Origin: Nonlabens spongiae
Lineage (GTDB): Bacteria; Bacteroidota; Bacteroidia; Flavobacteriales; Flavobacteriaceae
Direction of reading: 5' to 3'
Length of the DNA: 64,000 bases
Assembly: GCF_002117125.1 (NCBI RefSeq)
Contig: NZ_CP019344.1
Span: 1,702,501-1,766,500 of the forward strand
The first letter of the stretch is position 1; each line of letters begins with the position of its first letter. This document shows positions 406 to 62,935 of this stretch, in pieces. The notes below the pieces were generated by a model. That model saw nothing but the letters and a program-made list of their open reading frames with translations. It ran no database searches and was not told the origin of the DNA. The translations under genes were made by a program, and so were the position numbers.

Positions 406-419
406 GCTTTCGCGAAAGC
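406..419. repeat. palindrome GCTTTCGCGAAAGC, copy 1 (rRNA spacer)
   Basis: A perfect 14-bp palindrome between tRNA-Ile and tRNA-Ala, 9 bases past the 3' end of tRNA-Ile. In the precursor RNA it could form a 5-bp stem with a CGCG loop, next to a site that must be processed. Confidence 0.9.
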
Positions 420-428
420 GTAAAACAG

Positions 429-502
429 TAGTCTCGGGCAGACTCGAACTGCCGACCTCTACATTATCAGTGTAGCGCTCTAACCAGCTGAGCTACGAGA
501 CT
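429..502 (-). tRNA. tRNA-Ile (GAT)
   Basis: The minus strand reads as a cloverleaf with acceptor AGTCTCG/CGAGACT, D-arm TAGCTCAGCTGG, anticodon GAT in the loop CTGATAATG, and T-arm GCAGTTCGAGTCTGC. No CCA is encoded. It is the first tRNA after the 16S gene in the spacer. Confidence 0.97.
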
Positions 503-647
503 CTATGTGGACCACCCGTGGCGGACCCAAGATCTTAATTGACAGCGCCTCCTTAATCGAAAGCTTTTAAAATAAACACGCCGATCGGGCGTCGCGGAAA
601 AGGCAATGGAATCCCTCTCTACTTGGTTCCGTTATTTCAGGAACTCC

Positions 648-3024: not shown

Positions 3025-4359
3025 TCAGTTTAGCTTATTGCTGAGCAGGTATCTATAACGTAAGTACATCATCACGCTTGAAGCGGTTAGTCCCGCGCAC
3101 AGTCCAATCCATATTCCTGATAAAGCCAGATCAGTTTTCAAACCTAAATAGTAAGATACCGGCAAACCGAGAAGTCCATAAGACACCATACAAATCATAC
3201 TAGGCACCCAAACATCTTGTAGACCTCTTAGCGCACCTAGTATTACAACTTGAAATCCATCTGAAATTTGAAACAGGGCCGCAATCAACAGAGCAGACGC
3301 CGCAAGTTGAATAACGCTAACTTCTTTAATATATAAGAGTGGCAATAGATCGTTCAGCAAAACAAAAAGTGTTGCGAACAAGATCTCCAGTACCAGCGTC
3401 ATCAAGAATATAGAACGAGCGATGCGCTTGAGATCGATATAATTCTTCAATCCTACTTGATTTGAGACTCTAATGGTTGCCACCACACTTAACCCTACTC
3501 CAAACATGAATGTTATTGCAGACAAGTTCAATGCTATCTGATTTGCCGCTTGATACTCTGTTCCTAATTTACCTGAGAGAATTATCGCCGCAGTAAACAA
3601 TGACACTTCAAAGAACATTTGCATGGCGGTGGGGAAACCGATATTCAACAACTTAAGTACCGATCGTTTTGAGAACTTGATCGACTTATCGAAGAATTTT
3701 TTGAGTTCTCGCTTTCGCGAAAGCGTAAGATAAATAAACAGAAACATCAAAACTCTTGATGCAAGTGTGCCAATAGCGGCCCCTTCTACCTCAAGCCTTG
3801 GAAAACCCCATTTACCGTATATTAAAAAGTAATTGAGTAATACGTTAACCGCATTTGCACCAATTGCCGCATACATAGGAATAGTGGTGATGGAAAGACC
3901 GTCTGAAAATTGCTTGAGACCTTGAAAAAGCATTAAAGGTATCAATGAAAGAGCCACCCATCGCATATAGGGTATTGCCAGTTTTACAACTTCTGGCGGT
4001 TGATCCATATGGTGTAGGATAGGTTCTGCCAAAAAGAGCAATCCAGAAAGTATCATACCTAGAACTACGCAAAGCAAAAAGCCGTTATCCAAGTAAGATC
4101 GGGTTTTATCTAGAGTCCCATTTGAATGAGTTTCTGCAACTAGTGGTGTTATGGCAAAGGAAAATCCTATACCGATGGACATAGCTACAAAAACAAGGGT
4201 ATTGCCCAGTGAAACTGCAGCGAGCTGAGCTGCACCCAACTTTCCCACCATAATGTTATCAGCAAGTGCTACAATTAAATGAGCAATCTGACCCAAGACT
4301 ATCGGGTAGGCTAATTTTACGTTTGTGGGTAATTCTCTTGTATAATCTGAAAGTCTCAT
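3025..4359 (-). CDS. MATE family efflux transporter (NorM-like)
   Basis: The 444-residue integral membrane protein has about 12 hydrophobic segments in the two-bundle arrangement of MATE proteins. The N-terminal stretch PIVLGQIAHLIVALADNIMVGKLG matches the first helices of NorM-type exporters, including the conserved D-x-x-MVG. The family exports cationic drugs and metabolites in exchange for Na+ or H+; the substrate here cannot be read. Length is typical (430-460). It is monocistronic or leads the block that continues leftward to nothing. A copy of the GCTTTCGCGAAAGC palindrome lies inside the gene at 3711-3724 and encodes LSRKR in the loop after the central helices. Confidence 0.92.
   Translation of the reverse strand: MRLSDYTRELPTNVKLAYPIVLGQIAHLIVALADNIMVGKLGAAQLAAVSLGNTLVFVAMSIGIGFSFAITPLVAETHSNGTLDKTRSYLDNGFLLCVVLGMILSGLLFLAEPILHHMDQPPEVVKLAIPYMRWVALSLIPLMLFQGLKQFSDGLSITTIPMYAAIGANAVNVLLNYFLIYGKWGFPRLEVEGAAIGTLASRVLMFLFIYLTLSRKRELKKFFDKSIKFSKRSVLKLLNIGFPTAMQMFFEVSLFTAAIILSGKLGTEYQAANQIALNLSAITFMFGVGLSVVATIRVSNQVGLKNYIDLKRIARSIFLMTLVLEILFATLFVLLNDLLPLLYIKEVSVIQLAASALLIAALFQISDGFQVVILGALRGLQDVWVPSMICMVSYGLLGLPVSYYLGLKTDLALSGIWIGLCAGLTASSVMMYLRYRYLLSNKLN
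3711..3724. repeat. palindrome copy 2 (inside MATE gene)
   Basis: GCTTTCGCGAAAGC in the frame that yields Leu-Ser-Arg-Lys-Arg, placed in a cytoplasmic, positively charged loop where such residues are tolerated. Confidence 0.9.
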
Positions 4360-5284: not shown

Positions 5285-6451
5285 CTATTGCTTACTAGCA
5301 AAAAGGGTCACATCTTTTTTTGAGATTTCATCTCCCCCTAAAATAATCAACCTTTCTACTACATTACGCAGTTCTCTAATATTACCCGTCCAGTCATACT
5401 CTTTCAAGAGTTTTAGAGAATCTGAAGTGAATTTTTTTGCACCATTGCCTTGTTCTTGCGCTATCTTTTTAGCGAAATGTTCTACCAATAATGGTATATC
5501 ATCTCTGCGATCATTGAGAGAGGGTACATTTATCAAAATGACAGCTAGGCGATGGTATAAGTCCTCACGAAACTTTTTGTCCTCTATTTCTTTCTTTAGA
5601 TCCTTATTAGTCGCAGCGAGAATACGCACATCAACCTTAATGTCCTTGTCGCTACCTACGCGCTGAATTTTATTTTCTTGAAGAGCTCTCAGAACCTTAG
5701 CCTGCGCTTTGAGACTCATGTCTCCTATCTCATCCAAGAAGATCGTACCACCATTTGCGGCTTCAAATTTACCTGCACGATCTTTATTTGCTCCTGTGAA
5801 ACTACCTTTAACATGACCAAAAAGCTCACTTTCAATAAGTTCACCTGGTATTGCTGCACAGTTTACCTCAATAAACGGTGCCTTGCTCCTATTGCTTTTT
5901 TCATGCAGCCAGTGTGCTACAAGTTCTTTACCTGTACCATTACCACCGGTAATGAGTACCCGAGCATCTGTAGGTGCGACTTTTTCAATAATATTCTTAA
6001 TAATGGTAATGAGCTCAGACTCACCTACCATCTCATAATTTTTACTGACTTTCTTCTTGAGCCTGGTGTTCTCTGTCACTAAAGTTTTCCTATCAAGAGC
6101 ATTCCGCACTGTGTTCAACAGGCGATTCAAGTCTGGCGGTTTAGAGATATAATCAAATGCTCCGAGCCTCATGGTATTAACGGCAGTCTCAAGATCACCA
6201 TGTCCAGAAATCATCACAACGGGTGTATCAGGCTTGATTTTTTTAATTGCTTCAAGCACCTCCACGCCGTCCATTTTAGGCATTTTGATATCACAGAGTA
6301 CCAGATCGTAGTCTTTTTCTTTAATCATTTCTATACCGCTGAGGCCGTCCTCAGCTTCAGAAACGTTATAGTTTTTACTTTCTTCGGCTAGAATTTTAAC
6401 CAGAACCCTGCGTATTGCACTTTCATCTTCTATTATGAGTATTTCTGCCAT
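5285..6451 (-). CDS. NtrC-family response regulator with sigma-54 AAA+ domain but no Fis-type HTH
   Basis: The 388-residue protein has a receiver domain at residues 1-120, with phospho-acceptor Asp54 in CDIKMPKMDG and the Lys of YISKP near 104. An AAA+ sigma-54 activator domain follows (about 140-370): Walker A GGNGTGKE, GSFTGA loop (the family consensus is GAFTGA), Walker B GGTIFLDEIGD and the arginine-finger region. Usual NtrC proteins are 440-480 residues because a Fis-like DNA-binding domain follows; this one stops soon after NIRELRN at ...FASKQ. It may therefore act from solution on sigma-54 holoenzyme or as an oligomeric partner. Its start overlaps the stop of the barrel-protein gene by one base. 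Confidence 0.9.
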   Translation of the reverse strand: MAEILIIEDESAIRRVLVKILAEESKNYNVSEAEDGLSGIEMIKEKDYDLVLCDIKMPKMDGVEVLEAIKKIKPDTPVVMISGHGDLETAVNTMRLGAFDYISKPPDLNRLLNTVRNALDRKTLVTENTRLKKKVSKNYEMVGESELITIIKNIIEKVAPTDARVLITGGNGTGKELVAHWLHEKSNRSKAPFIEVNCAAIPGELIESELFGHVKGSFTGANKDRAGKFEAANGGTIFLDEIGDMSLKAQAKVLRALQENKIQRVGSDKDIKVDVRILAATNKDLKKEIEDKKFREDLYHRLAVILINVPSLNDRRDDIPLLVEHFAKKIAQEQGNGAKKFTSDSLKLLKEYDWTGNIRELRNVVERLIILGGDEISKKDVTLFASKQ

Positions 6452-7326
6452 TAAATTTTAAATTTTATACCAGCTCGAGAATAAAACGTATTGGTTTCGT
6501 TAATAATTTTCACATCATCCCCATCTGTGTTACGCAATCTTATCTCATTTAAAAACGTGTAACCAGCATAGACATAGACTGATATGTGCTTGGTAAAATT
6601 GTATTGATAACCTGGTCCTGCCATCGCTGTAGTCATGGATATGTTATCCCCTATCCCTCCATTTGTATCTACATCGTTCTGAATATTTGCATAAAAACCG
6701 TCAAGTCTTGCATATAACTGAACGCTATTTTTATCGTCAAATCTGTATCTAAGATTCATTTTGGGCGCACCTAAGGTAAAACTCCAGTCTTTCTTAAATT
6801 CTCTATAGTAATTCAAATATGGCAATGGAAAGGGTCTTCCTACGGTAGTGCTGTACTGTACACCTACCACGAGTTGCCAGGGCTTCCCTCCATCATCTCG
6901 TTTCTTCTCATTCTTAATAAAATATGCTGATGCTGATACAAAGTAATCATCTTTAACCGGCTTTGCCTCGTCAAAGTCAGAAGCTATCAAAACCCCAGCT
7001 CGGGAACCAAAACGCCAGTTATTCTTCAGCGGTTGTGTATAACCTAGAGCTATCTCGTAGCTTTCGTACCTATCGGTTGAGAATTCTTGGAAACGTTCTG
7101 TGTCACGTATCACCATGTGAACATTCCGATACTCGATAAACGGCACGAAATAAGTCCCTTCCCCTACTTTGAGAGGAATATTTGCAAATGTTCTGAACCT
7201 TCTGAAGCTGTTATCAGATTTTCTCTGCGGGAAATACGTATATTCAGCTCTGAAGAGATCTGTTCCTTGTGCGTCCGCTTTCGCGAAAGCGAGAACTAAA
7301 AATAAAGCTGCAAGAACACTTTTCAT
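6451..7326 (-). CDS. outer-membrane beta-barrel protein (DUF6268-like)
   Basis: The 291-residue protein starts with a signal peptide (SVLAALFLVLAFAKADAQ), followed by alternating aromatic/polar strands and a terminal strand ending in SRAGIKFKI, typical of outer-membrane barrels. The overall pattern resembles the flavobacterial DUF6268 family; function unknown. The c-region of the signal peptide is encoded by a copy of the palindrome (7277-7290, AFAKA). It lies between an MscS channel and the NtrC-like regulator, all on one strand and closely spaced, so an envelope-related operon is possible. Confidence 0.8.
   Translation of the reverse strand: MKSVLAALFLVLAFAKADAQGTDLFRAEYTYFPQRKSDNSFRRFRTFANIPLKVGEGTYFVPFIEYRNVHMVIRDTERFQEFSTDRYESYEIALGYTQPLKNNWRFGSRAGVLIASDFDEAKPVKDDYFVSASAYFIKNEKKRDDGGKPWQLVVGVQYSTTVGRPFPLPYLNYYREFKKDWSFTLGAPKMNLRYRFDDKNSVQLYARLDGFYANIQNDVDTNGGIGDNISMTTAMAGPGYQYNFTKHISVYVYAGYTFLNEIRLRNTDGDDVKIINETNTFYSRAGIKFKI
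7277..7290. repeat. palindrome copy 3 (signal peptide of barrel protein)
   Basis: The repeat encodes Ala-Phe-Ala-Lys-Ala just before the predicted signal peptidase site of the DUF6268-like protein. Confidence 0.9.
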
Positions 7327-11205: not shown

Positions 11206-11219
11206 GCTTTCGCGAAAGC
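11206..11219. repeat. palindrome copy 4 (intergenic)
   Basis: The repeat lies between the truA stop (11230) and the DUF2911 start (11126), close to the 3' end of truA, flanked by C and G so that 16 bases are symmetric. Confidence 0.9.
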
Positions 11220-13809: not shown

Positions 13810-13823
13810 GCTTTCGCGAAAGC
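13810..13823. repeat. palindrome copy 5 (intergenic)
   Basis: The repeat lies in the spacer between the HD gene start and the terminator of the DUF2807 gene. The right flank is T rather than G, so symmetry stops at 14 bases. Confidence 0.9.
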
Positions 13824-17027: not shown

Positions 17028-17041
17028 GCTTTCGCGAAAGC
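17028..17041. repeat. palindrome copy 6 (upstream of lon)
   Basis: The repeat lies in the divergent spacer between the sigma operon and lon, 84 bases before the lon ATG. Confidence 0.9.
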
Positions 17042-22807: not shown

Positions 22808-25480
22808 TTAGTCGGCGATGTTAGGATTGAGCCAGCGTTCTGCTTCTTGATAGGTAATTCCTTTGCGCTCTGCATAATCCTGCACCTGATCTTCCTTAAT
22901 CTTCCCCAGTCCAAAATACCGTGCTTCTGGATGCGCGATATAATATCCAGAAACACTTGCCGCTGGCCACATCGCGAGACTTTCTGTCAAGCGTACATTG
23001 ATTTTTTCCTTAACACCCAGCATTTCCCAAATCGTCTGTTTCTCTAAATGATCTGGACAGGCAGGATAACCGGGCGCAGGTCGAATCCCTTTGTATTCTT
23101 CCTTAATCAACGCATCATTATCAAGGTGCTCATCGCCCGCGTAACCCCAGAATTCCTTTCTAACTTTGAGGTGCAGATATTCCGAATAAGCCTCTGCCAG
23201 TCGATCAGCGAGCGCTTTTAACATAATGCTGTTATAGTCGTCGTGATCTTTTTCAAATTGAGCTGCCTTTTCTGCGACTCCAAAACCTGTACTCACGCAA
23301 AACGCACCGATATAATCTTGAACGCCGCTATTCTCAGGGGCGATAAAGTCTGAAAGAGCAATATTGGGCTTGCCCTTGGCTTTTTTGCTTTGCTGGCGTA
23401 ATGTTCTGAACGTAAAACCGCCTTCGTGATCTACGTTGATATCATCTCCTGCATTTTGGGCTGGGAACAACCCGTAGATTGCACGGGCCTCTAGCCAATT
23501 TTCTTCAATGATTATTCGCAGCATTTCCTGCGCATCGGCAAAAAGTTCTTTTGCTTGCTCTCCCACTACCTCATCAGTCAAAATGAGTGGATATCTCCCG
23601 TGTAGATCCCAGCTTCTAAAAAATGGCGACCAATCGATGTAATCCACCAGATCCTTGATCTCAACATCATTGAATTCAAAAACACCCAGTTTGTTAGGTT
23701 TTATCGGGTGATAATTTTCCCAATCGGTGGTCCACGGATTCTTTCGTGCTTCCTCGATGCTCAGGTATTCCTTCTTTTTTGATCGACCTAGGAAATCGGT
23801 TCTTAGTTTTGCGTATTCTTCTTTTTTCGCTTTCGCGAAAGCGTCATGACTACCATCTTCCTTCTCAATAACGGCACCAGCAATCGTAACCGCTCTACTC
23901 GCGTCATTTACATGGACTACCGTGCAGTCATATTCCGGATCGATTTTTACAGCGGTATGCGCACGAGAAGTCGTCGCTCCGCCTATCATTAGCGGCACTT
24001 TGAAGTCGCGTCGCTGCATCTCTTTTGCCAGGAAAACCATTTCATCGAGCGATGGAGTTATCAAACCACTCAAACCGATTATGTCCACATCATTTTCAAT
24101 GGCTGCATCAAGAATTTTCTCTGGTGGAACCATCACACCCAGATCGATGATCTCGTAATTGTTACACGCCAGCACCACGGAAACAATATTCTTACCGATG
24201 TCGTGAACATCGCCTTTAACGGTGGCCATCAAAACCTTACCGTTTGAAGACTTTGCACCGTCTTTCTCCTCTTCAATAAATGGCAGCAAATATGCCACCG
24301 CCTTTTTCATGACACGAGCACTTTTTACCACTTGAGGCAAAAACATTTTTCCACTCCCGAAAAGGTCTCCCACGACATTCATACCAGTCATCAAGTGCCC
24401 TTCAATTACCTCAATGGGCCTACTGACCGACTGCCGCGCCTCTTCCACATCTTCAATGATAAAGCCATCGATCCCCTTTACTAGCGATCTCGTGATGCGC
24501 TCTTGCAGTGAATCCTCTCGCCAGGAATCGTCCTTTGTAGAGGCTTTGGTGGTTTGTGTAACACTTTCTGCATAATCGAGCAATCGTTCTGTCGCATCAT
24601 CGCGACGGTTGAGCAGTACGTCTTCCACGTACTCCAACAGTTCTCTATCGATATCATCATAAACCTCAAGCAGAGCTGGATTTACTATCCCCATATTCAT
24701 ACCGGCATTTATCGCATGGTATAAAAATGAGCTGTGCATGGCCTCACGCACTGTATTGTTTCCCCTGAAACTAAAACTCACATTACTTACTCCACCGCTG
24801 ACACTTGCGTACGGCAAATTGTTACGCACCCAGCGAGTTCCTTCGATAAAGTCAATGGCATTGAGTTTGTGCTCCTCCATTCCAGTCGCTACTGGAAAAA
24901 TATTGAGGTCAAAAATGATGTCCTCTGGTGGAAACTTTACTTTTTTGACAAGGATTTCATAGCTGCGTTTTGCAATTTCAATTCTGCGATCATATGTATC
25001 GGCTTGTCCTACCTCATCAAATGCCATGACGATCACGGCTGCTCCATAACGTTTTATGGCTTTAGCTTGTTTAATAAATTCTTCCTCACCTTCTTTAAGG
25101 CTGATTGAATTTACGACGCATTTTCCCTGGACTACCTGAAGGCCAGCCTCAATGATTTCCCATTTAGAACTGTCGATCATGATAGGGACCCTTGAGATAT
25201 CAGGCTCGGCAGCGATTAGGTTCAGAAATTTTACCATTGCAGATTTCCCATCGATGAGACCGTCATCCATATTGATATCGATGATCTGCGCTCCGTTTTC
25301 TACTTGATCTCTCGCAATCTCAAGAGCTTCATCAAATTTTTCTTCTTTGATGAGTCTTAAAAACTTTCTGGAACCGGCGACGTTTGTACGCTCACCTACG
25401 TTGACAAAATTGCTCTCTGGCGTGATGACGAGCGGTTCAAGACCGCTTAATTTTAATGGTCGACAATCAGTTTTAGACAT
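22808..25480 (-). CDS. metH: methionine synthase, C-terminal part (pterin, B12 and activation domains)
   Basis: The 890-residue protein holds the folate-binding domain ([16 protein letters not shown]), the cobalamin cap and binding domains (GDVHDIGKN with the axial His ligand of the DxHxxG motif, then [13 protein letters not shown]), and the AdoMet activation domain ([15 protein letters not shown]). It lacks the homocysteine domain, which is encoded by the overlapping upstream gene. Together they equal a standard MetH of about 1230 residues. The palindrome at 23829-23842 encodes AFAKA at the linker before the activation domain. Confidence 0.96.
23829..23842. repeat. palindrome copy 8 (inside metH)
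   Basis: The repeat encodes Ala-Phe-Ala-Lys-Ala in a charged linker ([14 protein letters not shown]) between the B12 and activation domains, a position likely to tolerate insertions. Confidence 0.9.
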
Positions 25481-28652: not shown

Positions 28653-29615
28653 TTACGCTTTCGCGAAAGCGTGATTATCAACTCTTAACTTTAAAACCCA
28701 TCTATTCATTTGAGATTCTTTTGCTCCGAGCTCAGACTTATAACGTTTTAATCCTGTATTTATACTTCCGTCTGGTAAATGTGTGGTGCCAAAATCAAAA
28801 AATTTAAATCCCTTATTCTTAAAATCCTTGAAGGATTCCTGATTTAAGTAATCCATTGCACGTAACTGAAATCCTGTAGGAGTACTGGCTGCGTATTGAT
28901 TTTTGACAACTTCTCGATCCAGGAAAAAAAGTGATCCAGCTACAACCTCTTCTTCAAAACGTACCGTTTTCAGAATTATATTTTTCGGGAATCGAGATTT
29001 AAGTAGGGTAATCTCATCTAGCGAATGAACCGGTGTTGAATCATGCCTTGCCTGAAGCGATGGAATAAGCACCGAATGCCAATAACTCGCTAAATCTTCA
29101 CTTTGAGCGTAAGAGAGGGTATTAAAAGTACCATTGCGATAACCCGCAGATTTTTTCCCTGATATTAGGATCTCATCTTGCAAATTCATCCCCATACTGC
29201 ATAAGGAACGCGACAGCTCAAAGCCAGAATTTTCAAGTTGCACCTCCATTTCTACAATAGATATATCATAACTCAAGGGCGGTAGGTTAATTTCTATTTG
29301 ATTAATTTGATTTGTATCTAGATACGAGATAGTCGCGTCTAGAACCTCTCTAAAACGTTTTGAATCATAGGACTCCATTAATAGACCACCATAAGTTAAC
29401 CCACCATGAGAGCAGAACTCTCGACCCTTTTTATGAGCTGGGATACAGGCAATGAGATCACCATGATTATAAACTAACAGGCTGTAATCCTCAAAACGAT
29501 CTGAGTGATACTCCATAAAATCTCGCTGATGCATAAAAGAAGCATTGCAGCACTTGGAAACAAAATTGTTCCATGCATCTTTCAAATCGGGTGTGTATTG
29601 TGTTACAGAAACCAT
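28653..29615 (-). CDS. FemAB/GNAT-like acyltransferase
   Basis: About 320 residues from the ATG at 29615. An earlier ATG (29666) would add a hydrophobic 17-residue tail not seen in relatives. Seen: FMHQRDFMEYHSDRFEDYSLLVY, LIACIPAHKKG, SHGGLTYGGLLM and FKDFKNKGFKFFDFGTTH, patterns of the FemAB/GNAT-like group often found with polysaccharide genes. It probably adds an acyl or aminoacyl group to a cell-surface molecule; the substrate is unknown. Its C-terminal residues AFAKA come from the palindrome at 28657-28670. Confidence 0.8.
   Translation of the reverse strand: MVSVTQYTPDLKDAWNNFVSKCCNASFMHQRDFMEYHSDRFEDYSLLVYNHGDLIACIPAHKKGREFCSHGGLTYGGLLMESYDSKRFREVLDATISYLDTNQINQIEINLPPLSYDISIVEMEVQLENSGFELSRSLCSMGMNLQDEILISGKKSAGYRNGTFNTLSYAQSEDLASYWHSVLIPSLQARHDSTPVHSLDEITLLKSRFPKNIILKTVRFEEEVVAGSLFFLDREVVKNQYAASTPTGFQLRAMDYLNQESFKDFKNKGFKFFDFGTTHLPDGSINTGLKRYKSELGAKESQMNRWVLKLRVDNHAFAKA
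28657..28670. repeat. palindrome copy 9 (C-terminus of FemAB-like gene)
   Basis: The repeat encodes the last residues AFAKA of the FemAB-like protein, directly before its stop codon. Confidence 0.9.
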
Positions 29616-31723: not shown

Positions 31724-31737
31724 GCTTTCGCGAAAGC
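31724..31737. repeat. palindrome copy 10 (intergenic)
   Basis: ACGCTTTCGCGAAAGCGT, the full 18-bp symmetric form, in the spacer just after the stop of the small membrane protein at 31753 and upstream of typA. Confidence 0.9.
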
Positions 31738-33733: not shown

Positions 33734-35605
33734 CTAGTTGAATTTTGAATTTAAGTTCTCACCCGTGATTTTCACGAAGGTCTTTTTACCGTCAGGAGTA
33801 AGACCAGGTTCTTCACAGCAGAATAGTTTGTTGATTAAATGTTCCATTTCTTCCATTTTCATGGATTCTCCACTTTTTATGCGCATGTGTCGCGACATGA
33901 TCTCGGCGAGGTGACGCTTTCGCGAAAACGTATTTTCTTCCGGCACCTCAACCTCCTGACCGGCAATCACCGCATCTAATACGGATTCCACGTGATTTTC
34001 TTTGAGTTCCAAAGGCAAGCCTTCGATTTCAATAATATTGTCGTCCAGCTTTTTGAAAAGAAAGCCCATTTGTTCCAAATCGCTTCTAAGTTGGGCTAGA
34101 ATCGCAACTTCATTTTTGGATCGGTTCAATTTTATAGGAAATAGCAACTGTTGGCTTACGCTGTTTTGCGACCTGAATTGTTGTAATAAATATTCAAACA
34201 AAACACGTTCATGAGCCCTGCTCTGATAAACCACCAGCAATCCGCTTTGTAAGGTACTGATGATGAATTTACGTTGTAATTGAAAGATATTTCCTTTCTT
34301 CTCTTGACCCTCATCAAATAAGGAAGCTTGCTCGTCGCTGCTTTCTACAATGGTCGCAGATTCATCTGTTGCGGCATAAAGCGCTTCCCATGGCGCAGGG
34401 TCTTTCTTGAAACTTTGAAATGATGTGATTGATTTTGGTTCTCTGGGCGTCGCGGGTCGATCGTCAAAACCAGCATCGCCGCTTCCTACTCGTTCATTCT
34501 TGAACGGATTGAAATTACGGTCTACTTCTATTTTAGGCGTATTTACCGGAGCTGTTCTGGCCACATCATAAGGAACCTCATATTCTGTATCGCGTTCAAA
34601 ATCGATCGCGCTCACCTGAAATTGTCCTAAGGCGTGCTTGACACTTGCTCTAATAATCGCATACAAACTATGCTCATCGTCAAATTTCACTTCCGTTTTT
34701 GTGGGGTGAATATTGATGTCCACGCTATCGCTAGGCACTTTCAGGTATAAAAAATAACTGGGGTTTGCACCATCTTTTAAAAGCCCTTCAAAAGCAGCGG
34801 TAATCGCATGGTGTAAGTAGTTATGTCTTATAAAACGATCGTTCACAAACAAAAATTGGAGCCCTTTCGTTTTACGAGCAAACTCTGGTTTACCTATAAA
34901 TCCAGAAATCGTGACAATCTCTGTCTCCTCTTCTACCGCAATAAGCTTTTCATTGGTTTTAGAACCCATGATGTTAACGATGCGCTGTCTTTTGTTACCG
35001 CTGGGCAGATTAAAAAGGTCGTTGCTGTTATGAACAAAATGCATAGTAATATTAGGATGGGCTAGTGCTACTCGATGGAATTCATCGGTAATATTGCGTA
35101 ACTCTACATTGTCAGACTTCAGGAATTTACGGCGGGCTGGGACATTGTAGAACAAATTGGAAACACTTATCGTTGTCCCATGCTGCATTACAGCTGGTTC
35201 TTGGGAGCTTACTTTGCTTCCTTGAATGTGGATTTCAGTCCCTAGATCTGTATCGGGTTGTTTGGATTTCAAAACCACATGGGCAATTGCCGCAATGGAA
35301 GCTAGTGCTTCTCCTCTGAAACCTTTGGTATGTAAATTAAACAGATCATCAGCCGATTGGATTTTAGAAGTTGCATGACGTTCAAAGGCCATTCGCGCAT
35401 CCATCATGCTCATGCCTTTACCATTGTCAATGACCTGGACTAAAGTTTTACCCGCATCTTTTACGATGAGTTTGATCTCTGTCGCACCCGCATCGATCGC
35501 ATTTTCCAGTAATTCTTTAACCACACTAGCCGGTCGCTGTACAACCTCACCAGCAGCGATCTGATTTGCCACGTGATCGGGCAATAATTTAATTACATCT
35601 TGCAT
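33734..35605 (-). CDS. mutL: DNA mismatch repair protein MutL
   Basis: About 623 residues from the ATG at 35605. The earlier ATG (35620) adds five residues, but QDVIKLLPDHVANQIAAGEVV is where relatives begin. The N-terminal GHKL ATPase is complete: ELLENAIDAGA (N), DNGKGM, FRGEALASIA and HGTTISV. In the C-terminal domain the usual metal motif DQHAxHER appears as YQSRAHERVLFE, so the Asp is missing here. MutL couples MutS to repair. The imperfect palindrome at 33916-33929 encodes FSRKR near the C-terminus. Confidence 0.93.
   Translation of the reverse strand: MQDVIKLLPDHVANQIAAGEVVQRPASVVKELLENAIDAGATEIKLIVKDAGKTLVQVIDNGKGMSMMDARMAFERHATSKIQSADDLFNLHTKGFRGEALASIAAIAHVVLKSKQPDTDLGTEIHIQGSKVSSQEPAVMQHGTTISVSNLFYNVPARRKFLKSDNVELRNITDEFHRVALAHPNITMHFVHNSNDLFNLPSGNKRQRIVNIMGSKTNEKLIAVEEETEIVTISGFIGKPEFARKTKGLQFLFVNDRFIRHNYLHHAITAAFEGLLKDGANPSYFLYLKVPSDSVDINIHPTKTEVKFDDEHSLYAIIRASVKHALGQFQVSAIDFERDTEYEVPYDVARTAPVNTPKIEVDRNFNPFKNERVGSGDAGFDDRPATPREPKSITSFQSFKKDPAPWEALYAATDESATIVESSDEQASLFDEGQEKKGNIFQLQRKFIISTLQSGLLVVYQSRAHERVLFEYLLQQFRSQNSVSQQLLFPIKLNRSKNEVAILAQLRSDLEQMGFLFKKLDDNIIEIEGLPLELKENHVESVLDAVIAGQEVEVPEENTFSRKRHLAEIMSRHMRIKSGESMKMEEMEHLINKLFCCEEPGLTPDGKKTFVKITGENLNSKFN
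33916..33929. repeat. palindrome copy 11, one change (inside mutL)
   Basis: GCTTTCGCGAAAAC; the right arm has A for G. In mutL it reads as Thr-Phe-Ser-Arg-Lys-Arg. Confidence 0.8.
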
Positions 35606-36058: not shown

Positions 36059-36072
36059 ACTTTCGCGAAAGC
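36059..36072. repeat. palindrome copy 12, one change (intergenic)
   Basis: ACTTTCGCGAAAGC in the spacer before the 49-residue gene; the first base is A instead of G. Confidence 0.8.
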
Positions 36073-40005: not shown

Positions 40006-40019
40006 GCTTTCGCGAAAGT
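40006..40019. repeat. palindrome copy 13, one change (inside island)
   Basis: GCTTTCGCGAAAGT in the spacer between the polymerase-like gene and the next gene; the last base is T. Confidence 0.8.
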
Positions 40020-42224: not shown

Positions 42225-42238
42225 GCTTTCGCGAAAGC
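42225..42238. repeat. palindrome copy 14 (inside island)
   Basis: ACGCTTTCGCGAAAGCGT in full, 130 bases before the methyltransferase pseudogene. Confidence 0.9.
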
Positions 42239-51846: not shown

Positions 51847-53274
51847 ATGAAAGTTTTACTTTCCGGTGCAAACGGCTACATAGGAGTACGGTTGCTATAC
51901 GAACTTCTCAAGGCAGATCACGAGGTGGTTTGTGCTGTGCGCAGTGCTGATAGACTCTCCGTACCGCAAGATATTAAGGATCAGGTTGAGATCGTGGAAA
52001 TCGACTTTTTAAAATTAAAAGACCATAATCCCATACCGCAAGACATTGAGGCGGCCTACTACCTCATCCACTCCATGACCTCGAGTACTGAGAATTTTGA
52101 CGAGATGGAGTCTGAAAGTGCTGAGAATTTTGTCAAACTGAACAGCGAGACTTCTTGCAGACAGGTCATTTACCTCTCAGGCATCGTTAATGAGGAGGAG
52201 CTGAGTAAACATTTGCTTTCGCGAAAGCGGGTAGAAGAAATACTGCGTTCTGGTGATTATAGTTTAACGGTTTTAAGAGCCGGAATCATCGTAGGTAGCG
52301 GAAGCAGCAGTTTTGAAATTATACGCGATCTGTGTGAAAAATTGCCCATCATGATTACTCCCAGATGGGTCAATACAAAGACGCACCCGATTGCCATCAG
52401 GAACGTGATGAGTTTTTTGATAGGCGTTTTGGGCCGGGACGACTGCATGAATGAGGGCTATGATATAGGCGGTGATAGTGTACTGACTTACAAGGAAATG
52501 ATGCAAGGGTATGCAAAAAACCGAAAGCTCAAGCTCGCCATCATTACCGTGCCTGTGATGACCCCTAAATTGAGTAGTTACTGGCTGTATTTTGTGACCA
52601 GTACCAGTTATAAATTGGCTCAAAATCTGGTCAACAGCATGAAGGTTGAAGTGGTTGCAAAACCAAATGATCTCGCAGAACGACTGGGAATCGAGCTATT
52701 TACCTATCAAGAGGCGCTGGAAATGGCTTTCGCCAAAATCGAGCAAAATCAGGTTGCCAGCAGCTGGAAAGACAGTATGGTAAGCGGTAGGTTTAGAAAA
52801 AGCTTGAATAAGTATAAAAAAGTTCCAGAATATGGTGTTGTGCGCGATGCTCAGAAAATGAAAACTAATGAGCCAGAGAAAGCGCTAGAACGCATCTGGT
52901 CCATAGGTGGTAAGAATGGCTATTATTATGCAGACTTCTTATGGCGCATACGCGGTGCACTAGACAAGCTCATGGGCGGTGTGGGATTGAGGCGTGGACG
53001 CACCAACCAAAACACGATTTTCTCTGGGGATGCACTGGATTTCTGGCGGGTTCTCGTCGCTGATAAAGAAGAAAAAAGACTACTTTTATTTGCAGAAATG
53101 AAAGTACCAGGAGAAGCCTGGCTGGAATTTGAGATAGACGATGATAACGTCATTCATCAAACCGCCACCTTCAGACCGCGAGGACTAAAGGGCAGGCTCT
53201 ACTGGTACTCCATGCTTCCCTTCCATTATTTCATCTTTCATGGTATGATTAAACATATTGCTGGCGCAAAATGA
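51847..53274 (+). CDS. SDR family NAD(P)-binding oxidoreductase with DUF2867 domain
   Basis: The 475-residue protein begins with VLLSGANGYIGVRLLYELL (dinucleotide-binding G-x-x-G-x-x-G pattern) and has YYLIHSM and VIYLSGIVN of atypical short-chain dehydrogenases. After about 320 comes the DUF2867 domain (RIWSIGGKNGYYYADFLWRIRGALDKLMGG ... FRPRGLKGRLYWYSMLPFHYFIFHGM). Substrate unknown; related proteins act on membrane-associated small molecules. The palindrome at 52215-52228 encodes LSRKR at residues about 124-128. It is just past the island and belongs to the core genome. Confidence 0.9.
   Translation: MKVLLSGANGYIGVRLLYELLKADHEVVCAVRSADRLSVPQDIKDQVEIVEIDFLKLKDHNPIPQDIEAAYYLIHSMTSSTENFDEMESESAENFVKLNSETSCRQVIYLSGIVNEEELSKHLLSRKRVEEILRSGDYSLTVLRAGIIVGSGSSSFEIIRDLCEKLPIMITPRWVNTKTHPIAIRNVMSFLIGVLGRDDCMNEGYDIGGDSVLTYKEMMQGYAKNRKLKLAIITVPVMTPKLSSYWLYFVTSTSYKLAQNLVNSMKVEVVAKPNDLAERLGIELFTYQEALEMAFAKIEQNQVASSWKDSMVSGRFRKSLNKYKKVPEYGVVRDAQKMKTNEPEKALERIWSIGGKNGYYYADFLWRIRGALDKLMGGVGLRRGRTNQNTIFSGDALDFWRVLVADKEEKRLLLFAEMKVPGEAWLEFEIDDDNVIHQTATFRPRGLKGRLYWYSMLPFHYFIFHGMIKHIAGAK
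52215..52228. repeat. palindrome copy 15 (inside SDR gene)
   Basis: The frame gives Leu-Leu-Ser-Arg-Lys-Arg, in a charged helix after the dinucleotide-binding half. Confidence 0.9.
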
Positions 53275-54279: not shown

Positions 54280-54283
54280 AATA

Positions 54284-55924: not shown

Positions 55925-55928
55925 TACT

Positions 55929-55936
55929 CAAATTTA
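55929..55936 (-). promoter_or_regulatory. promoter of cassette 1, -7 element
   Basis: TAAATTTG on the minus strand ends 5 bases before the ATG, so the RNA would begin at or within a base or two of the start codon. Confidence 0.5.
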
Positions 55937-55990
55937 CTATGCAGATACGTAATGACCCCCTTTAAATTATTTTTGAATGCTGCAGTTTAA

Positions 55991-56653
55991 TTAAATCAAC
56001 CCCAAGTCTTTTACGATCCCAATAAGATGCGCATCATTTTTGGCATCAAAAATCATAAGTAGTCTTCGCTGACATCGATCGATTACACTCACACTATTGG
56101 GCTCAATATTCTGTTGGTTTAAAATCGCACTGATTTCTTGCTTAGAGTTCCCTTCAGACATGAGTTGGAGCAATTTGATGTCATAATCATTAATGTCACG
56201 GTCTCTGTGATCTATGAAGGCAGAAAGTACATCCTTTGAGTAGTAGACATCATCCTCTTCCACCATTCTGATAGCTTTTTTTAGTTCTTCAGGACCTTTT
56301 CTACCCTTGGACACGTACGCGTCGATTTCATATTTATCAACGAGCATGCGGACTTTTTGTAGATTATTATCAATGGAGTATACAATTGTTTTAATTTCCA
56401 TTTGCTCTCGAATTCTTTTAATCAAGTGCATACCGTTTTGGATATCATCACTTTTAAAATCAGGACCAAAACTCAAGTCAGAAATAAAAAGGTCATAAGG
56501 TTTACCGATTTGTTGAGCATACATAAGCTTCTGATAGGCATCATCACAAAAGAGTACGTGATCTACTTGAGTCACGCCCATTTGACCTAACATCTCAACT
56601 ACGCTGAAGCCAATACTGCCTAAATCCTCTGCAACCAAAACTTTTTGAAACAT
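55991..56653 (-). CDS. response regulator of tandem cassette 2
   Basis: It has 220 residues, the same length as the cassette 1 regulator: VAEDLGSIGFSVVEML, phospho-acceptor Asp59 in LFISDLSF, Lys in YVSKGRKGP, then a LuxR-like end (LLQLMSEGNSKQEISAILNQQNIEPNSVSVIDRCQRRLLMIF). It lies 5 bases after its kinase gene. Confidence 0.88.
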   Translation of the reverse strand: MFQKVLVAEDLGSIGFSVVEMLGQMGVTQVDHVLFCDDAYQKLMYAQQIGKPYDLFISDLSFGPDFKSDDIQNGMHLIKRIREQMEIKTIVYSIDNNLQKVRMLVDKYEIDAYVSKGRKGPEELKKAIRMVEEDDVYYSKDVLSAFIDHRDRDINDYDIKLLQLMSEGNSKQEISAILNQQNIEPNSVSVIDRCQRRLLMIFDAKNDAHLIGIVKDLGLI

Positions 56654-56658
56654 AATAC

Positions 56659-58299
56659 TTATAAAATAATCGCGGCTTTAAAGCCGTGACCTTTCTCAGA
56701 CTCAAAGGTAACAGAACCATCGATGGATTTGATACGGTTTTTAATGTTGAGTAAACCATTTCCTTTCAAAATATCAGATCCCATGCCATTGTCCTGATAG
56801 GAAATTTTGATCGTATCATCGTTTTGAGAAAACATAAATACCACATGTGTGGCACCACTATGCTTTTTCATGTTAGTCAATAGTTCTTGCAAAACCCGAT
56901 AAAGATTGGTTTTTTCATGAGCCTTTAATTTTGACCAGTCCATTTTTCCTAAATTTAGAGTCAAAATATTTACTTCTGAATTTTTGTAAGCAATAAAAAG
57001 ATCTTCTAAATCCTTACTGAAATTGCTGTCAGGATCTAGCGGGCTATTATCTCGGGAAATGTCTCTCACTCGGTTATAGATGTGATCTAAATTATTTAAA
57101 AGGCTCTCGTTTTCTGGTACAACTTTTTGTAGCCCGAGCATAGTATGATAAAGGTCGTTTGCGATCTCGTCGTGCATTCTTGCCGAGATGCGCTTCTCAG
57201 TATTTATGCTTTCGTTCATAACAGCAATCTTATTACGTTGTCGGCTACGGTTATAAATAAGTATAGAGGTGAACACAACAACGATAATAATCGTTGAGAA
57301 AATCAGGAAATAGTATCTATTTTTGGTTCTCAACTGCTCGGCCTCTCTTTCTTTTAATGCAACACCGTATCGTATTTCGGCAAATTTGTTGGAGCTGCTC
57401 TGCTCCACGCGTTTTAGACTATCACTAAGAAAGGCAAATCTTTGAGTTGCTCTTTCATCTTCAAGTTTTAAGAGATTTTCAAGAGCCGATAATTCAAGTG
57501 GTATCAATTTGCTCTCTTGTGCAATTTGGAGTGCATTTTCTGAATGAAAAAGAGCCTTGGATTTATCCTCATTTCTAAAGTAATGTTCTGAAAGATGTAA
57601 ATGACTGTAAATTTCACCTTCCTTCAAATCCAAACTATCACGTATTTTCAAAGAATTCAGCAGTGTAGATTCGGCGTTCGAGAGATCAAGCATTGATTCA
57701 GCGTGACCTAAATCATCTAAAAATCTAGCTGTAAGCTCTGGCTTATCTAGATTTTCTGAAAGATTTAAAGCTTTCTCATAATGAGAAATAGCTAAATTAT
57801 ATTCCTCTAACTTAGTATATACGAGCCCTATATTACCATAAACACCAGCTAAATAGGCAGGATCGTCTGTTAAGGTTAATACTTTACGATAATACTTCAG
57901 AGACTTCTCATATTCTACCAATTCTTTTTTTAAAATTCCAAGTATATTATAAGTTCTTATACGAGCGAAGTTCATCCAGCCCGATTCCTCTGAACTGTCC
58001 ATCATCTTCAACACATTAATAGAACTTGCTTCACTTTCCCTCAACTCGCCTAATTTGTATTCTATGGCAGATTTAATTGTCCATAAATATATTTCAGTAT
58101 CAATACTTTTAGCAGGTTTTCTTTCAAGGGAATCTAAACTTTTCAGAAGCAACTGATATTGATCTAGTATTACCGTCCTTTCCGAAGTTTCATAGACTTG
58201 GTTTTCAATTTTAGTTAAGTGTGAAATAGTGCCCTGTGCTTGACATATTGAGCCTATTAGAAAAAAAAAGTAGGGGAATGTTGATCGCAATGAAATCAT
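56659..58299 (-). CDS. TPR-containing sensor histidine kinase, cassette 2
   Basis: It has 546 residues, the same length as the cassette 1 kinase: signal peptide, TPR repeats (GNIGLVYTKLEEYNLAISHYEKALNL), TM helix (YFLIFSTIIIVVVFTSILIYN), RISARMHDEIANDLYHTM with phospho-His, N box ELLTNMKKHSGATHVVFMF, G1 box YQDNGMGSD, then LKGNGLLNIKNRIKSIDGSV. All ATPase motifs are intact. The twin lies right behind it on the strand. Confidence 0.9.
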   Translation of the reverse strand: MISLRSTFPYFFFLIGSICQAQGTISHLTKIENQVYETSERTVILDQYQLLLKSLDSLERKPAKSIDTEIYLWTIKSAIEYKLGELRESEASSINVLKMMDSSEESGWMNFARIRTYNILGILKKELVEYEKSLKYYRKVLTLTDDPAYLAGVYGNIGLVYTKLEEYNLAISHYEKALNLSENLDKPELTARFLDDLGHAESMLDLSNAESTLLNSLKIRDSLDLKEGEIYSHLHLSEHYFRNEDKSKALFHSENALQIAQESKLIPLELSALENLLKLEDERATQRFAFLSDSLKRVEQSSSNKFAEIRYGVALKEREAEQLRTKNRYYFLIFSTIIIVVVFTSILIYNRSRQRNKIAVMNESINTEKRISARMHDEIANDLYHTMLGLQKVVPENESLLNNLDHIYNRVRDISRDNSPLDPDSNFSKDLEDLFIAYKNSEVNILTLNLGKMDWSKLKAHEKTNLYRVLQELLTNMKKHSGATHVVFMFSQNDDTIKISYQDNGMGSDILKGNGLLNIKNRIKSIDGSVTFESEKGHGFKAAIIL

Positions 58300-58824: not shown

Positions 58825-59175
58825 ATGAAAACCTCGGTACTAGAATCGCATAGGCTTTTGATTGTTAACGCTTTCGCGAAAGCGGAAACTGAACTCAGAG
58901 AAGCCAATATCACAAAAATATCGAAGTATAAAATGGCTGAGCGGGTATCCCATTATTTAACTTCTAATGGTTTTTCCTACGGTTATAGATCTTTGACCAA
59001 TCTTTACAATGATGCGATGACTGAGGGCCAAATAGTTGTTATCAAGCAAACTCAAGTGATTGAACTGTTATCCATGTATTTAGGATATGAAGAGTTTGCT
59101 GAATTCAGGCTCTACACCAAAAAGAATACATCCGATCCCTCCAAAACCAATCATGAACCCGTTGATCCAAACTAG
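58825..59175 (+). CDS. 116-residue protein of unknown function
   Basis: It starts with MKTSVLESHRLLIVNAFAKAETELREANITKISKYKMAERVSHYL and looks all-helical and soluble. The palindrome (58870-58883) encodes NAFAKA near the N-terminus. Resemblance to N-terminal helical modules of other flavobacterial hypotheticals is my impression only. Confidence 0.7.
   Translation: MKTSVLESHRLLIVNAFAKAETELREANITKISKYKMAERVSHYLTSNGFSYGYRSLTNLYNDAMTEGQIVVIKQTQVIELLSMYLGYEEFAEFRLYTKKNTSDPSKTNHEPVDPN
58870..58883. repeat. palindrome copy 16 (inside 116-residue gene)
   Basis: The frame gives Asn-Ala-Phe-Ala-Lys-Ala in a predicted amphipathic helix near residue 18. Confidence 0.9.
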
Positions 59176-60014: not shown

Positions 60015-60034
60015 CAAATAGATTTTGATCTAAA

Positions 60035-61927
60035 TTAGATATTCAACCAGGCTTTTCTGACTGCAATTTGCTCAGCAGTTGCATCTGGGTCTTCAACTAA
60101 ACTTTTACTTGTTGCCATAGGCGTGGTAAGTGTAGCCTTTCTCTCGATCTTCTTGCCATCACGTTCTATGGTATAAGTAATTTCATCGCCAGCTTTCCAT
60201 TGAAATACTTGACCTATTACAGTTTGAGCGTTTGCAAGATTCAGATCTGAGCCGTTGATCTTCAGGATTATATCATCTGCCTGAACTTTCTGCTCTCTCC
60301 AGAATGAGTTTTCAAGAGCCATAGCGCTGAATTTGATCAACTGGCGCTCGCGATCTGCATCAAAGATGATGTTTTGTCCTCCAGCGAAAATATAAGTAGT
60401 CTCCACTTCTTCTTCAGCCAGCATCAAGCCTGCTTTATTAAAAAACTTCTCGTAGTCGATAGGTGTATCACCTGCTACGTGAGTTCTTAAAAACTCTCCT
60501 ATCGATGGATACGTCATTTTAGTGATTTCCTCGATCAAGGAATCGTCGGCAAAGGGCTTGTCCTTTCCATATTTAGTAGAAAGCTCTTTCATCAAGCTCA
60601 ACATACTGCGGTTTCCATGACTCTCTTCACGCATCATGATGTCTATGCACATTCCTATCAAAGCTCCTTTTGAATACACGTTGATGTAATTGTCCTTATA
60701 AGGTTCTTCAAGAATGTTTTCACTCATTGTAGTAAAACTCATCGCGTCATCATAATTCATGGAACTAGCGATCTTACCCATGATCTCCTGATAGAATTCA
60801 TCTGGAGTTACAAGTCCTTCAGCAACCTGGAAGTGTTGAGCAAAATACTCAGTAACACCTTCATACATCCACAAGTGCTTTGAGAAGGTGGGCTGATTAT
60901 AATCAAAATAATGTACGTCTTCTGAATGTACAGAAAGCGGAGTAACGATGTGGAAAAACTCATGAGCAACAACATCTGTCATGCTAGAAGCTAATCGTTC
61001 TGAATCCATCATCTCTGGAAGCACTACAACGGTAGATGTATGGTGTTCCAGAGCTCCGAAGCCTTTGGGGGCAGTCTCAGACCCATCTGATAGGTACAGG
61101 TAGATATCATAACGAGCTGTGCTGTTGATGTCCCCTAGGTAAGCTTTCTGCGCTTGCATGGTTTTAAACATGTTATCCTTTTGACTAGCAGCAGTGTGAG
61201 TTCCATTAGGAGAATAAACGCTTAGGACGATTTTAATATCTCCTACCATAAATTCCTCAACATCGAGCTTCCCATACATCATAGGATTATCTGTAATATC
61301 AAAATAACGATCAGCACGATAGCTAGTTGTCATTTTTGAGCCATCTTCAGACATTGATGTTGCCACCTCTTGCAATGCTGATGTACGCACAAAATCAGCT
61401 GGAGCGGTAACGTCTAGGTTGTATGCGTTATTTTTAAGAGAATCAAAATACCCTATGAAACCATGAAGGTTTAAAACATAATTTGAATCTTCAATATTCG
61501 TTCCTGATGGAGAAAATGGCTGCTCATTCCCTATTCCGCCTGTTTGCTCGATATCAAATGTATCATTTACTAAATAAGTAATGTAATCTAAGTCTTGGGC
61601 ATTTGCCACAGTCCATGTGTTGTCATCTGCTCTGTTAACAGCCATCTCTTTCCCAGTATAATCATAGGCTACGAGATCGTCCACATATTTACCAAAATCA
61701 CTCACAGAATAAGTCCCTTGAACAACTCTAGGCAATCTATAAGTAACCATATCTTGAGTAAATCTACCTGGGTTAATCGTGACCGGTAATTTATCATTGA
61801 CAACCATGGTAAGATCCATGGAAGTCATAATGGGATTTGCCGTGGCAAGATCATTTTTTTTCTGTTTTGTGGAACTACAGCCCGTCAACAATAAAATTGC
61901 GAGAACTGAGGAAAATACATATTTCAT
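60035..61927 (-). CDS. M61 family metallopeptidase, lipoprotein
   Basis: The 630-residue protein has a lipoprotein signal (SSVLAILLLTGC, then SST). The zinc motif is VVAHEFFHIVTPLSVHSE (HExxH) with a second Glu in YEGVTEYFAQHF. A C-terminal PDZ domain (about 500-600, WREQKVQADDIILKINGSDL) is usual in M61 (glycyl aminopeptidase-like) proteins. It should cut periplasmic or surface peptides. Single gene with its own terminator. Confidence 0.92.
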   Translation of the reverse strand: MKYVFSSVLAILLLTGCSSTKQKKNDLATANPIMTSMDLTMVVNDKLPVTINPGRFTQDMVTYRLPRVVQGTYSVSDFGKYVDDLVAYDYTGKEMAVNRADDNTWTVANAQDLDYITYLVNDTFDIEQTGGIGNEQPFSPSGTNIEDSNYVLNLHGFIGYFDSLKNNAYNLDVTAPADFVRTSALQEVATSMSEDGSKMTTSYRADRYFDITDNPMMYGKLDVEEFMVGDIKIVLSVYSPNGTHTAASQKDNMFKTMQAQKAYLGDINSTARYDIYLYLSDGSETAPKGFGALEHHTSTVVVLPEMMDSERLASSMTDVVAHEFFHIVTPLSVHSEDVHYFDYNQPTFSKHLWMYEGVTEYFAQHFQVAEGLVTPDEFYQEIMGKIASSMNYDDAMSFTTMSENILEEPYKDNYINVYSKGALIGMCIDIMMREESHGNRSMLSLMKELSTKYGKDKPFADDSLIEEITKMTYPSIGEFLRTHVAGDTPIDYEKFFNKAGLMLAEEEVETTYIFAGGQNIIFDADRERQLIKFSAMALENSFWREQKVQADDIILKINGSDLNLANAQTVIGQVFQWKAGDEITYTIERDGKKIERKATLTTPMATSKSLVEDPDATAEQIAVRKAWLNI

Positions 61928-62005
61928 AAACTAAATTAAGTGGGATAATCCCGTTTAAAATTCAATGATTGGACTGATAGTCTAATTAAATGTTACTAAT
62001 TACTA

Positions 62006-62935
62006 TCAAGATTTTGGAAGAAAGACCTCTGCCATCATACACCTTACAGATCCCCCACCTAAAGTTTCAATTGTAGTAATGTCTGGATGAATGATCTCAT
62101 TATAAATACTCAACTTTTGAATTTGCTCACCTGTTAAAGATCTATAAGCTTGATCACTCATCACTAGATAGCGTTCTCCTTTATTATTGTGAACCTGCAT
62201 CATATTACCTGCAAAAGAGGCTACTTGTTGTTCTGTAATAGCGATCACCTCTTTACCGCTTTCTTTGATGTTTCTCAGAAGGTTTTTCCGTTCTTTTTTA
62301 TCATCAACACTATCGAGACAAACTACAGCAAATTGCTCTCCCAGCGCCATCATCACATTTGTGTGATATATAGGCATACGCTGGTCACCCACACTTTGAT
62401 TTGCAGTAAATATTACGGGAGTGTATTCCATATCCTCGCAAAATTCTATCAGCAACTCTTCATGGGCACGATCTGAAAGAGAGCAATAAGCCAGCTCGTT
62501 CTGGCGATCCAGCAATAAACTACCTGTTCCTTCTAGATAAACACCCTCTTCCTCTGCGCTGGAGTAATCTAAAACGTTGCTTATTTTAAATCCTTGCTCC
62601 TCTAGGGTGTCAAGAACCTCCGGTCTCCTTTCAAGTCTACGATTCTCTGCAAACATGGGATAGAGAACGACGTCCCCATTCTCGTGCGTAGATATCCAGT
62701 TATTAGGAAATATGGAGTCTGGCGTATCGTGTTTGTTATCGTCTTCTATGATGATGACGTTAATGCCTTTTGATTGTAACGCTTTCGCGAAAGCGTCAAA
62801 CTCTTTCTGCGCCTTGCTGTTTTGATCATTGATCTCAGCATCTTCATCTTGGTAAAAATTATTTACGGCAGTCTGTTCATTCAACCGGAAACGCACCGGA
62901 CGGACCATAAAAACGGTATCTGTAATTTGCTTCAT
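62006..62935 (-). CDS. ctlX: citrulline utilization hydrolase CtlX
   Basis: About 309 residues from the ATG at 62935. An upstream ATG (62962) adds nine residues that relatives lack, whereas KQITDTVFMVRPVRFRLNEQTAVNNFYQ fits the family start. Guanidino-modifying signatures: DDNKHDTPDSIFPNNWIS and the terminal catalytic Cys in GGGSVRCMMAEVF. CtlX-type enzymes of the amidinotransferase fold hydrolyse citrulline or a similar ureido compound. The palindrome at 62782-62795 encodes AFAKAL. The next gene upstream is a related hydrolase 23 bases away. Confidence 0.9.
   Translation of the reverse strand: MKQITDTVFMVRPVRFRLNEQTAVNNFYQDEDAEINDQNSKAQKEFDAFAKALQSKGINVIIIEDDNKHDTPDSIFPNNWISTHENGDVVLYPMFAENRRLERRPEVLDTLEEQGFKISNVLDYSSAEEEGVYLEGTGSLLLDRQNELAYCSLSDRAHEELLIEFCEDMEYTPVIFTANQSVGDQRMPIYHTNVMMALGEQFAVVCLDSVDDKKERKNLLRNIKESGKEVIAITEQQVASFAGNMMQVHNNKGERYLVMSDQAYRSLTGEQIQKLSIYNEIIHPDITTIETLGGGSVRCMMAEVFLPKS
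62782..62795. repeat. palindrome copy 17 (inside ctlX)
   Basis: The frame gives Asp-Ala-Phe-Ala-Lys-Ala-Leu, in a surface helix before the active-site loop. Confidence 0.9.

Follow-up and report, generated by a model that had tools for sequence, protein, structure and literature searches.

Of the words that are iterated throughout genomes, few classes are understood (Chi, uptake words, the FtsK-orienting polar sequences KOPS, and the highly iterated palindrome HIP1). The word considered here was found in a 64,000-nucleotide stretch of Nonlabens spongiae (contig NZ_CP019344.1 of assembly GCF_002117125.1, positions 1,702,501 to 1,766,500; hereafter the window) and has a 14-bp core, GCTTTCGCGAAAGC; by comparison it is a longer word and a perfect palindrome, with copies that are strictly kept and lie at even distances, and it belongs to marine bacteria. 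It carries a long flank signature, occurs far above chance and, at the single site where this could be traced without bias, is conserved. In the reading that we favour, which stands about an even chance of being right, its copies are the selected site of a dimeric (or larger) protein that would act along the chromosome and resident prophages.

Among the described systems, HIP1 of cyanobacteria (GCGATCGC) resembles the Nonlabens word in being a perfect CG-rich palindrome of high frequency, specific to its lineage; in the pertinent passages of PMC4390886, HIP1 is 8 bp long and tied to methyltransferases, whereas the Nonlabens word has 14 bp and a signature of about 50 bp, and the C5 and N6/N4 methylase families are not present in all of its carriers. 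The 18-nt word of Caldithrix abyssi is likewise unexplained, mostly palindromic and spread over the chromosome; the portion of PMC5317091 that deals with it counts 38 exact copies that lie mostly between genes, show weak clustering and strand specificity and lack conservation outside the 18 nt, whereas the Nonlabens word has 779 copies, also within genes, with even spacing and a flank signature. Repetitive extragenic palindromic (REP) elements associated with the transposase RAYT are palindromic and number in the hundreds as well, but RAYT is not found in all carriers of the Nonlabens word, close pairs of the word are avoided and its copies also lie in coding sequence (8 of 17 in the window). 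The sites parS, matS, KOPS and those bound by Noc serve chromosome segregation proteins, and the TTTC...GAAA half-site of the Nonlabens word resembles parS; those sites are local, macrodomain-limited or polar, unlike the Nonlabens word, which is near-uniform and accompanied by a separate parS. The DNA uptake sequences (DUS) of Neisseriaceae and uptake signal sequences (USS) of Pasteurellaceae are asymmetric words, which resemble the Nonlabens word in their lineage-specific dialects and in the AT-rich flanks of USS. They also share with it hundreds of exact copies and a steep fall from exact to mismatched forms (cf. the corresponding part of PMC1939737), whereas the Nonlabens word is a perfect palindrome and is as dense in some phage contigs as in the host.

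The whole genome (3,393,235 bases, two contigs) contains 779 exact copies of GCTTTCGCGAAAGC, about one per 4.4 kb, and none of the reversed control. In 750 kb of it, 172 exact copies were counted against 0.0004–0.0035 expected under Markov models of orders 1 to 5 (0.0004 at order 5), so the excess over chance, which the first-pass annotation had pointed out in the window, extends to the genome. In 764 kb (22.5% of the genome), sites with zero, one and two mismatches number 174, 22 and 5, against 0.001, 0.067 and 1.42 expected from base composition, which is the steep drop from exact to mismatched forms of an over-represented word. The 22 one-mismatch copies fall mainly into two types of change, outer G>A (9) and T5>C (9), making 18 of the 22, with none at positions 3, 6 and 7; such a spectrum is as binding specificity would leave. 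The 8-mer TTCGCGAA occurs 118 times in 458 kb and only once outside TTTCGCGAAA, which indicates that the unit is the long word. A variant at 2891–2904, listed earlier beside the copies, lies outside the set, its core GCTTTGCAAAGC being isolated and present just once in the 764 kb.

In 92 of 108 copies the core is bordered by C/G at both ends; it lies within a signature of about 50 bp that the exact copies share. With strands pooled, C stands at -1 in 93% and T at -4 in 77% of cases, positions -7 and -13 to -10 are T-rich, and G-rich positions follow at -16 and -18, with C depleted, the signature fading near -20; it is the same in genic and intergenic copies, and the left and right flanks taken separately each show it. 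Complementary flank pairs within a copy number 771, compared with 785 (sd 20) when flanks are re-paired between copies. This independence of the flanks favours two half-sites, each read on its own in duplex DNA, over a hairpin. Hairpin, cruciform and terminator were accordingly disfavoured, as they also were by the polarity of the T-runs, since the T-rich 5' side and A-rich 3' side of the core are the opposite of a terminator U-run. Three RNA folds were not better than many of the shuffles (z -0.7 to -1.6), and the spacer copies show no preference for 3' ends (8 in 22.5 kb of convergent, 14 in 20.9 kb of divergent and 33 in 62.9 kb of tandem spacers).

The fairly even distances reported in the first-pass annotation were confirmed against random draws. 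In the first 431 kb, 100 exact sites have a mean spacing of 4.2 kb and a coefficient of variation of 0.60 (0.99 in random placement), none of 10,000 draws being as even, and only 2 of 99 intervals are shorter than 1.5 kb compared with 29.5 expected. In sampled stretches, two of which overlap the first 431 kb, 15 of 180 intervals were shorter than 1.5 kb (59.9 expected; one mismatch allowed) and none of 5,000 draws was as even; a control that holds the intergenic share fixed gave 10 of 117 compared with 42.1 expected. The density is near-uniform, 0.20–0.35 per kb in 12 of 15 stretches, the lower values belonging to the short contig C2 (0.14) and to two stretches picked for their gaps (0.12 and 0.15).

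The window itself holds 17 copies when up to two mismatches are allowed, namely the 14 exact and three one-mismatch copies already counted in the first-pass annotation and none with two mismatches; 100 shuffles of the window gave a mean of 0.24 matches and at most 2. The starts given there also agree, except that the last copy begins at 62781 and not 62782. The 18-bp palindrome described at the same time holds as a consensus, with the exact 16-mer in 10 copies and the exact 18-mer in 4. Copies occur both in spacers and in genes, as had been stated (9 of 17 intergenic and 8 genic, assigned by hand):

406..419, strand., exact 14-bp core, tRNA-Ala/tRNA-Ile spacer of an rRNA operon
3711..3724, strand., exact core, inside a MatE transporter gene, reads LSRK
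7277..7290, strand., exact core, DUF6268 gene, near the N-terminus (signal-peptide-like stretch), reads AFAKA
11206..11219, strand., exact core, intergenic
13810..13823, strand., exact core, intergenic
17028..17041, strand., exact core, immediately 5' of the first possible lon start codon
21511..21524, strand., exact core, PagL-family gene, near the N-terminus (signal-peptide-like stretch)
23829..23842, strand., exact core, variable linker of the methionine synthase MetH
28657..28670, strand., exact core, 3' end of a GNAT-like gene, 1 base ahead of the stop codon
31724..31737, strand., exact core in the full 18-bp form, intergenic
33916..33929, strand., one-mismatch copy, G>A at position 13 (C2>T when folded), in mutL
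36059..36072, strand., one-mismatch copy, outer G>A, intergenic
40006..40019, strand., one-mismatch copy, outer G>A when folded, intergenic
42225..42238, strand., exact core, intergenic
52215..52228, strand., exact core, NAD-binding/DUF2867 gene, reads LSRK
58870..58883, strand., exact core, classed as intergenic, the overlying 116-aa frame being taken for spurious
62781..62794, strand., exact core, DDAH-family gene, reads AFAKA

The copy in MetH is exact in all nine Nonlabens relatives compared, within alignments that extend at least 387 bases to either side at 72–75% identity; in this linker the 14 bases are fixed while the adjoining residues vary. Together with the abundance of the word in all 22 other Nonlabens genomes searched, this bears out the expected conservation in close relatives, with some turnover of sites. 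The copies at 17028, 28657, 33916 and 36059 gave no alignment in any of the nine relatives, and that at 31724 was excluded from the conservation count, its two alignments (G004 and G022) being just 48 and 37 bases long and anchored on the motif. Selection on exactness is supported by the conservation and the mismatch spectrum taken together.

In a sample of the genome, 62 of 125 copies were intergenic and 63 genic according to a rough gene caller, which assigned only 73% of the sequence as coding, which inflates the intergenic share; among the copies called genic, the core reads AFAKA in 38, LSRK in 17 and FRES in 8. In both the MetH and the PagL-family genes the copy lies in variable protein sequence, where the motif-less relatives have substitutions and short gaps; most of the motif-less MetH sequences are two residues shorter, and that of Dokdonia sinensis has an extra stretch of 20 residues. 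Insertion of a mobile element was rejected as the origin of the copies, since they are read-through codons in variable stretches and not clear inserts. Pairs of copies with one or two mismatches, 350–369 bp apart, recur in five Nonlabens relatives and may reflect a repeated protein domain.

A search of 59 genomes, including the source genome, whose 16S rRNA is that of Bacteroidota, found 288–857 exact copies in each of the 22 other Nonlabens genomes. Of the 13 genomes from other genera of the family, 12 have none and one has six, and all 23 from elsewhere in the order have none. A larger group supplied 299 family genomes, of which just five have more than 19 copies, namely three Nonlabens, the Dokdonia genome G250 (857) and G234 of another genus (408), while the remaining 294 have 1–19 copies (56 genomes) or none (238); among 296 genomes of the phylum, the source genome alone exceeds four copies, and any copy at all is present in 16. 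The word is dense in only three of the sampled genera: Nonlabens, Dokdonia and one more. Of 80 named loci around a conserved gene, one locus of an uncultured Nonlabens and three Dokdonia loci contain the 14-mer, one Leeuwenhoekiella locus has the 10-mer core alone, and the others have at most three copies of the 8-mer. A quick tree of two joined proteins groups Nonlabens with Dokdonia (SH-aLRT 95) and places G234 on a long branch; as this placement is unsure, one or more origins of the word are possible. No dense long palindrome of their own was seen in 11 genomes of other genera (samples of 20–140 kb), and the open-licence literature searched by motif strings and related topics gave no description of GCTTTCGCGAAAGC.

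The mismatch spectrum and the spacing carry the argument for the favoured reading, from which we infer a protein and its function, a dimeric binder acting along the chromosome, and selection that keeps the word genome-wide. Each copy, as duplex DNA, would be bound sequence-specifically by a symmetric protein (a dimer or larger), and this putative binder would belong to Nonlabens, Dokdonia and one further genus. Selection would hold the copies exact and at the observed density of about one per 4 kb chromosome-wide, at which few lie closer than 1.5 kb, and the role may be that of an architectural, segregation or maintenance protein that needs regular anchors on all resident DNA, prophages included. 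Of the options raised in the first-pass annotation, a nucleoid or segregation site fits best with the two-sided signature of about 50 bp, the independent flanks, the even spacing and the near-uniform density, although no protein was found for it.

Phage sequences bear on the inclusion of prophages. Among the matches listed, several viral contigs with head, tail, portal, terminase, integrase or transposase genes have 2–5 copies, and some phage contigs carry the word at host density. In one phage lineage, five near-identical contigs with 3–4 copies each, at matching positions, have a common interval of 4480 bp; one contig of this lineage encodes terminase, portal protein and SieB, with weak integrase and repressor-like matches, and no copies occur in 30 more distant relatives. 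In a second group, one of 23 viral contigs has five copies; for a Mu-like contig, no relative was found except itself.

Several observations weigh against the favoured reading. None of the gene families tested tracks the motif, and no candidate binding protein was found among them. The PagL-family copy at 21511 is kept in six of nine relatives (five exact, one with T5>C; no alignment in the other three), but the alignments stop 4–16 bases beyond the copy, which tilts the count towards presence. The rRNA-spacer copy at 406 is found in both operons of the source genome, is exact in G019 and G020 and takes the T5>C form in G004 and G008, yet it is absent from four of the eight other Nonlabens spacers read (G002, G005, G010 and G015); this patchiness indicates that sites turn over, and an rRNA operon spacer is an awkward spot for a protein that binds tightly. 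Some pairing is seen at two of 25 flank offsets (z 2.5 and 2.3), and in G234 (26 half-sites) the T-tract at -10 is lacking and the C and T beside the core are less marked. No copy, even with two mismatches allowed, is present in the Nonlabens phages P12024S (35.7 kb) and P12024L (35.0 kb), and the phage contigs that do have copies are without an established host. The DNA uptake signal considered below would, moreover, leave much the same sequence pattern. Apart from these arguments, TCGCGA is absent from P12024S and P12024L, and CGCG occurs 9 and 10 times in 35 kb at 36% GC, compared with about 35 calculated by hand from composition.

As for ParB, no paralogue tracks the motif; one ParB_N match was found in eight of ten Nonlabens, in G250 and in G234, and the extra match in G000 and G019 is a 616-aa frame that is also present in G145, G204 and G259, which lack the dense motif. 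The parS site TGTTTCACGTGAAACA is present separately in seven of seven Nonlabens searched. The identity of the word with parS or a Noc-binding site was rejected, given the near-uniform rather than regional density, the separate parS and the lack of a tracking ParB paralogue. The genera without the motif have parS of the TGTTCCACGTGGAACA type where the seven Nonlabens have TGTTTCACGTGAAACA, and a parS pair about 1.9 kb apart is common to both groups (e.g., in G122, G259, G234, G250 and G019).

The main and strongest rival, unlikely as we judge it, is a DNA uptake signal, with competent cells preferring DNA that bears the palindrome, a surface receptor reading naked DNA, and copies that accumulate and become spaced because one per fragment suffices. 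The even spacing, one copy per few kb, and the lineage-specific wording agree with it; copies in the rRNA spacer and in coding sequence would be tolerated, and the two Nonlabens phages without the word fit as well. ComEC, the sole competence gene searched, occurs in 23 of 23 motif-rich genomes and equally in nine of nine without the dense motif; competence is thus possible, but the gene does not discriminate. Copies at matching positions in some phages are not obviously favoured by uptake, and, to our knowledge, known uptake words are not long palindromes. A preference for own DNA is reported, in the relevant section of PMC7965970, for Riemerella columbina; the same paper places the related R. 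anatipestifer in Flavobacteriaceae.

Distinctly unlikely is a self-mark against degradation, a two-sided Chi-like site whose bound protein would halt or divert an exonuclease, resident DNA then being repaired and not destroyed. The density of about one per 4.4 kb is similar to that of Chi in Escherichia coli, and the word occurs in some phages and is absent from the two Nonlabens phages, whose records include the ERF and YqaJ recombination genes. Chi words, however, are short, asymmetric and read as one strand, whereas the Nonlabens word is a perfect palindromic duplex site with like flanks on both sides.

The CpG-rich palindromic centre recalls a HIP1-like word, made and kept by an orphan methyltransferase and a repair bias on TCGCGA or CGCG, and in cyanobacteria HIPs track methyltransferases, as stated in the same passages of PMC4390886. 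The C5 methylase family is absent in five of ten Nonlabens and in G234, and the N6/N4 family in three of ten and in the Dokdonia genome G250; the motif-rich G008 and G010 have neither, so neither family is the common cause, the search having covered these two and not the Dam-type or type I methylases. Since, in addition, the long word is the unit, the methylation or HIP1-like option is very unlikely. A REP-like mobile palindrome spread by RAYT is scarcely credible in spite of the hundreds of palindromic copies, about half of them called intergenic by the rough caller, and of RAYT-family genes in six of ten Nonlabens, as this Y1 transposase family is absent in four of ten and in G234, the coding copies are codons of variable stretches and close pairs are avoided, which also tells against the self-spreading element proposed in the first-pass annotation.

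The favoured reading of a chromosomal binding site may be extended, with clear reservation, to a new chromosome-wide maintenance system in which a lineage-specific dimeric protein uses evenly spaced anchors, neighbouring lineages have another dialect and temperate phages adopt the host word. The dialect of the neighbouring Flavobacteriaceae would then use the same TTC...GAA half-site with a one-base spacer, YTTCNGAAR. This 9-bp odd palindrome occurs at about 0.6–1.5 per kb, 4–6 times the Markov expectation, in Altibacter, Ulvibacter and the genera g12 and g95, in which RTTCNGAAY is little or not enriched; elsewhere the ratio is 3.0 in G131, 2.8 in Aequorivita, 2.3 in the Mesonia/Salegentibacter set and 1.1–1.9 in others, and CTTCGGAAAG in G033 is part of the same word. 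Either a second dialect or a coding effect could account for YTTCNGAAR. The restriction of the Nonlabens word to a few genera and its presence in some phages and absence in others make it directly testable why a chromosome would need regular sites.

By eye, the gap at 284–305 kb has many transposases, and the window gap at 42–52 kb contains a split MmeI-type restriction locus, which together suggest that recently gained DNA is without the word. This restriction-modification gene, at 42369–45079 of the window, extends over three motif-free open frames (N-terminal part and helicase; methylase; target recognition) and is probably broken. In the motif-poor gap (locus L326), an IS110-like frame (13–978) has one motif copy, reading AFAKA, and a second IS110-like element nearby reads differently at that place. 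Contig C2 has a tyrosine-recombinase-like frame (5917–6768) followed by small unrelated frames that, by eye, resemble an integron cassette array.

Several further genomes of the family hold their few copies in clusters, among which a pair 933 bp apart recurs. These clusters are best read as lateral transfer from motif-bearing lineages, and the word may serve as a tag for tracing DNA moved out of these genera. Pairs exactly 933 bp apart were seen in several genera (G122, G131, G145, G204 and G259); that of G122 lies, judging by eye from translations, within a heavy-metal efflux island with a Fur-like gene and two P-type ATPases.

Two further features of the window were recorded. Two open frames of equal size (301 aa), at 12189–13094 and 41133–42038, may lie at the two ends of a segment of about 28 kb; a DDE transposase is encoded by the first, and the second is known by its size alone. 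At 53617–58299 there is an apparent tandem duplication of a gene pair of 220 aa and 546 aa, the last frame of which, the sole one searched, has TPR and histidine-kinase-like ATPase matches.

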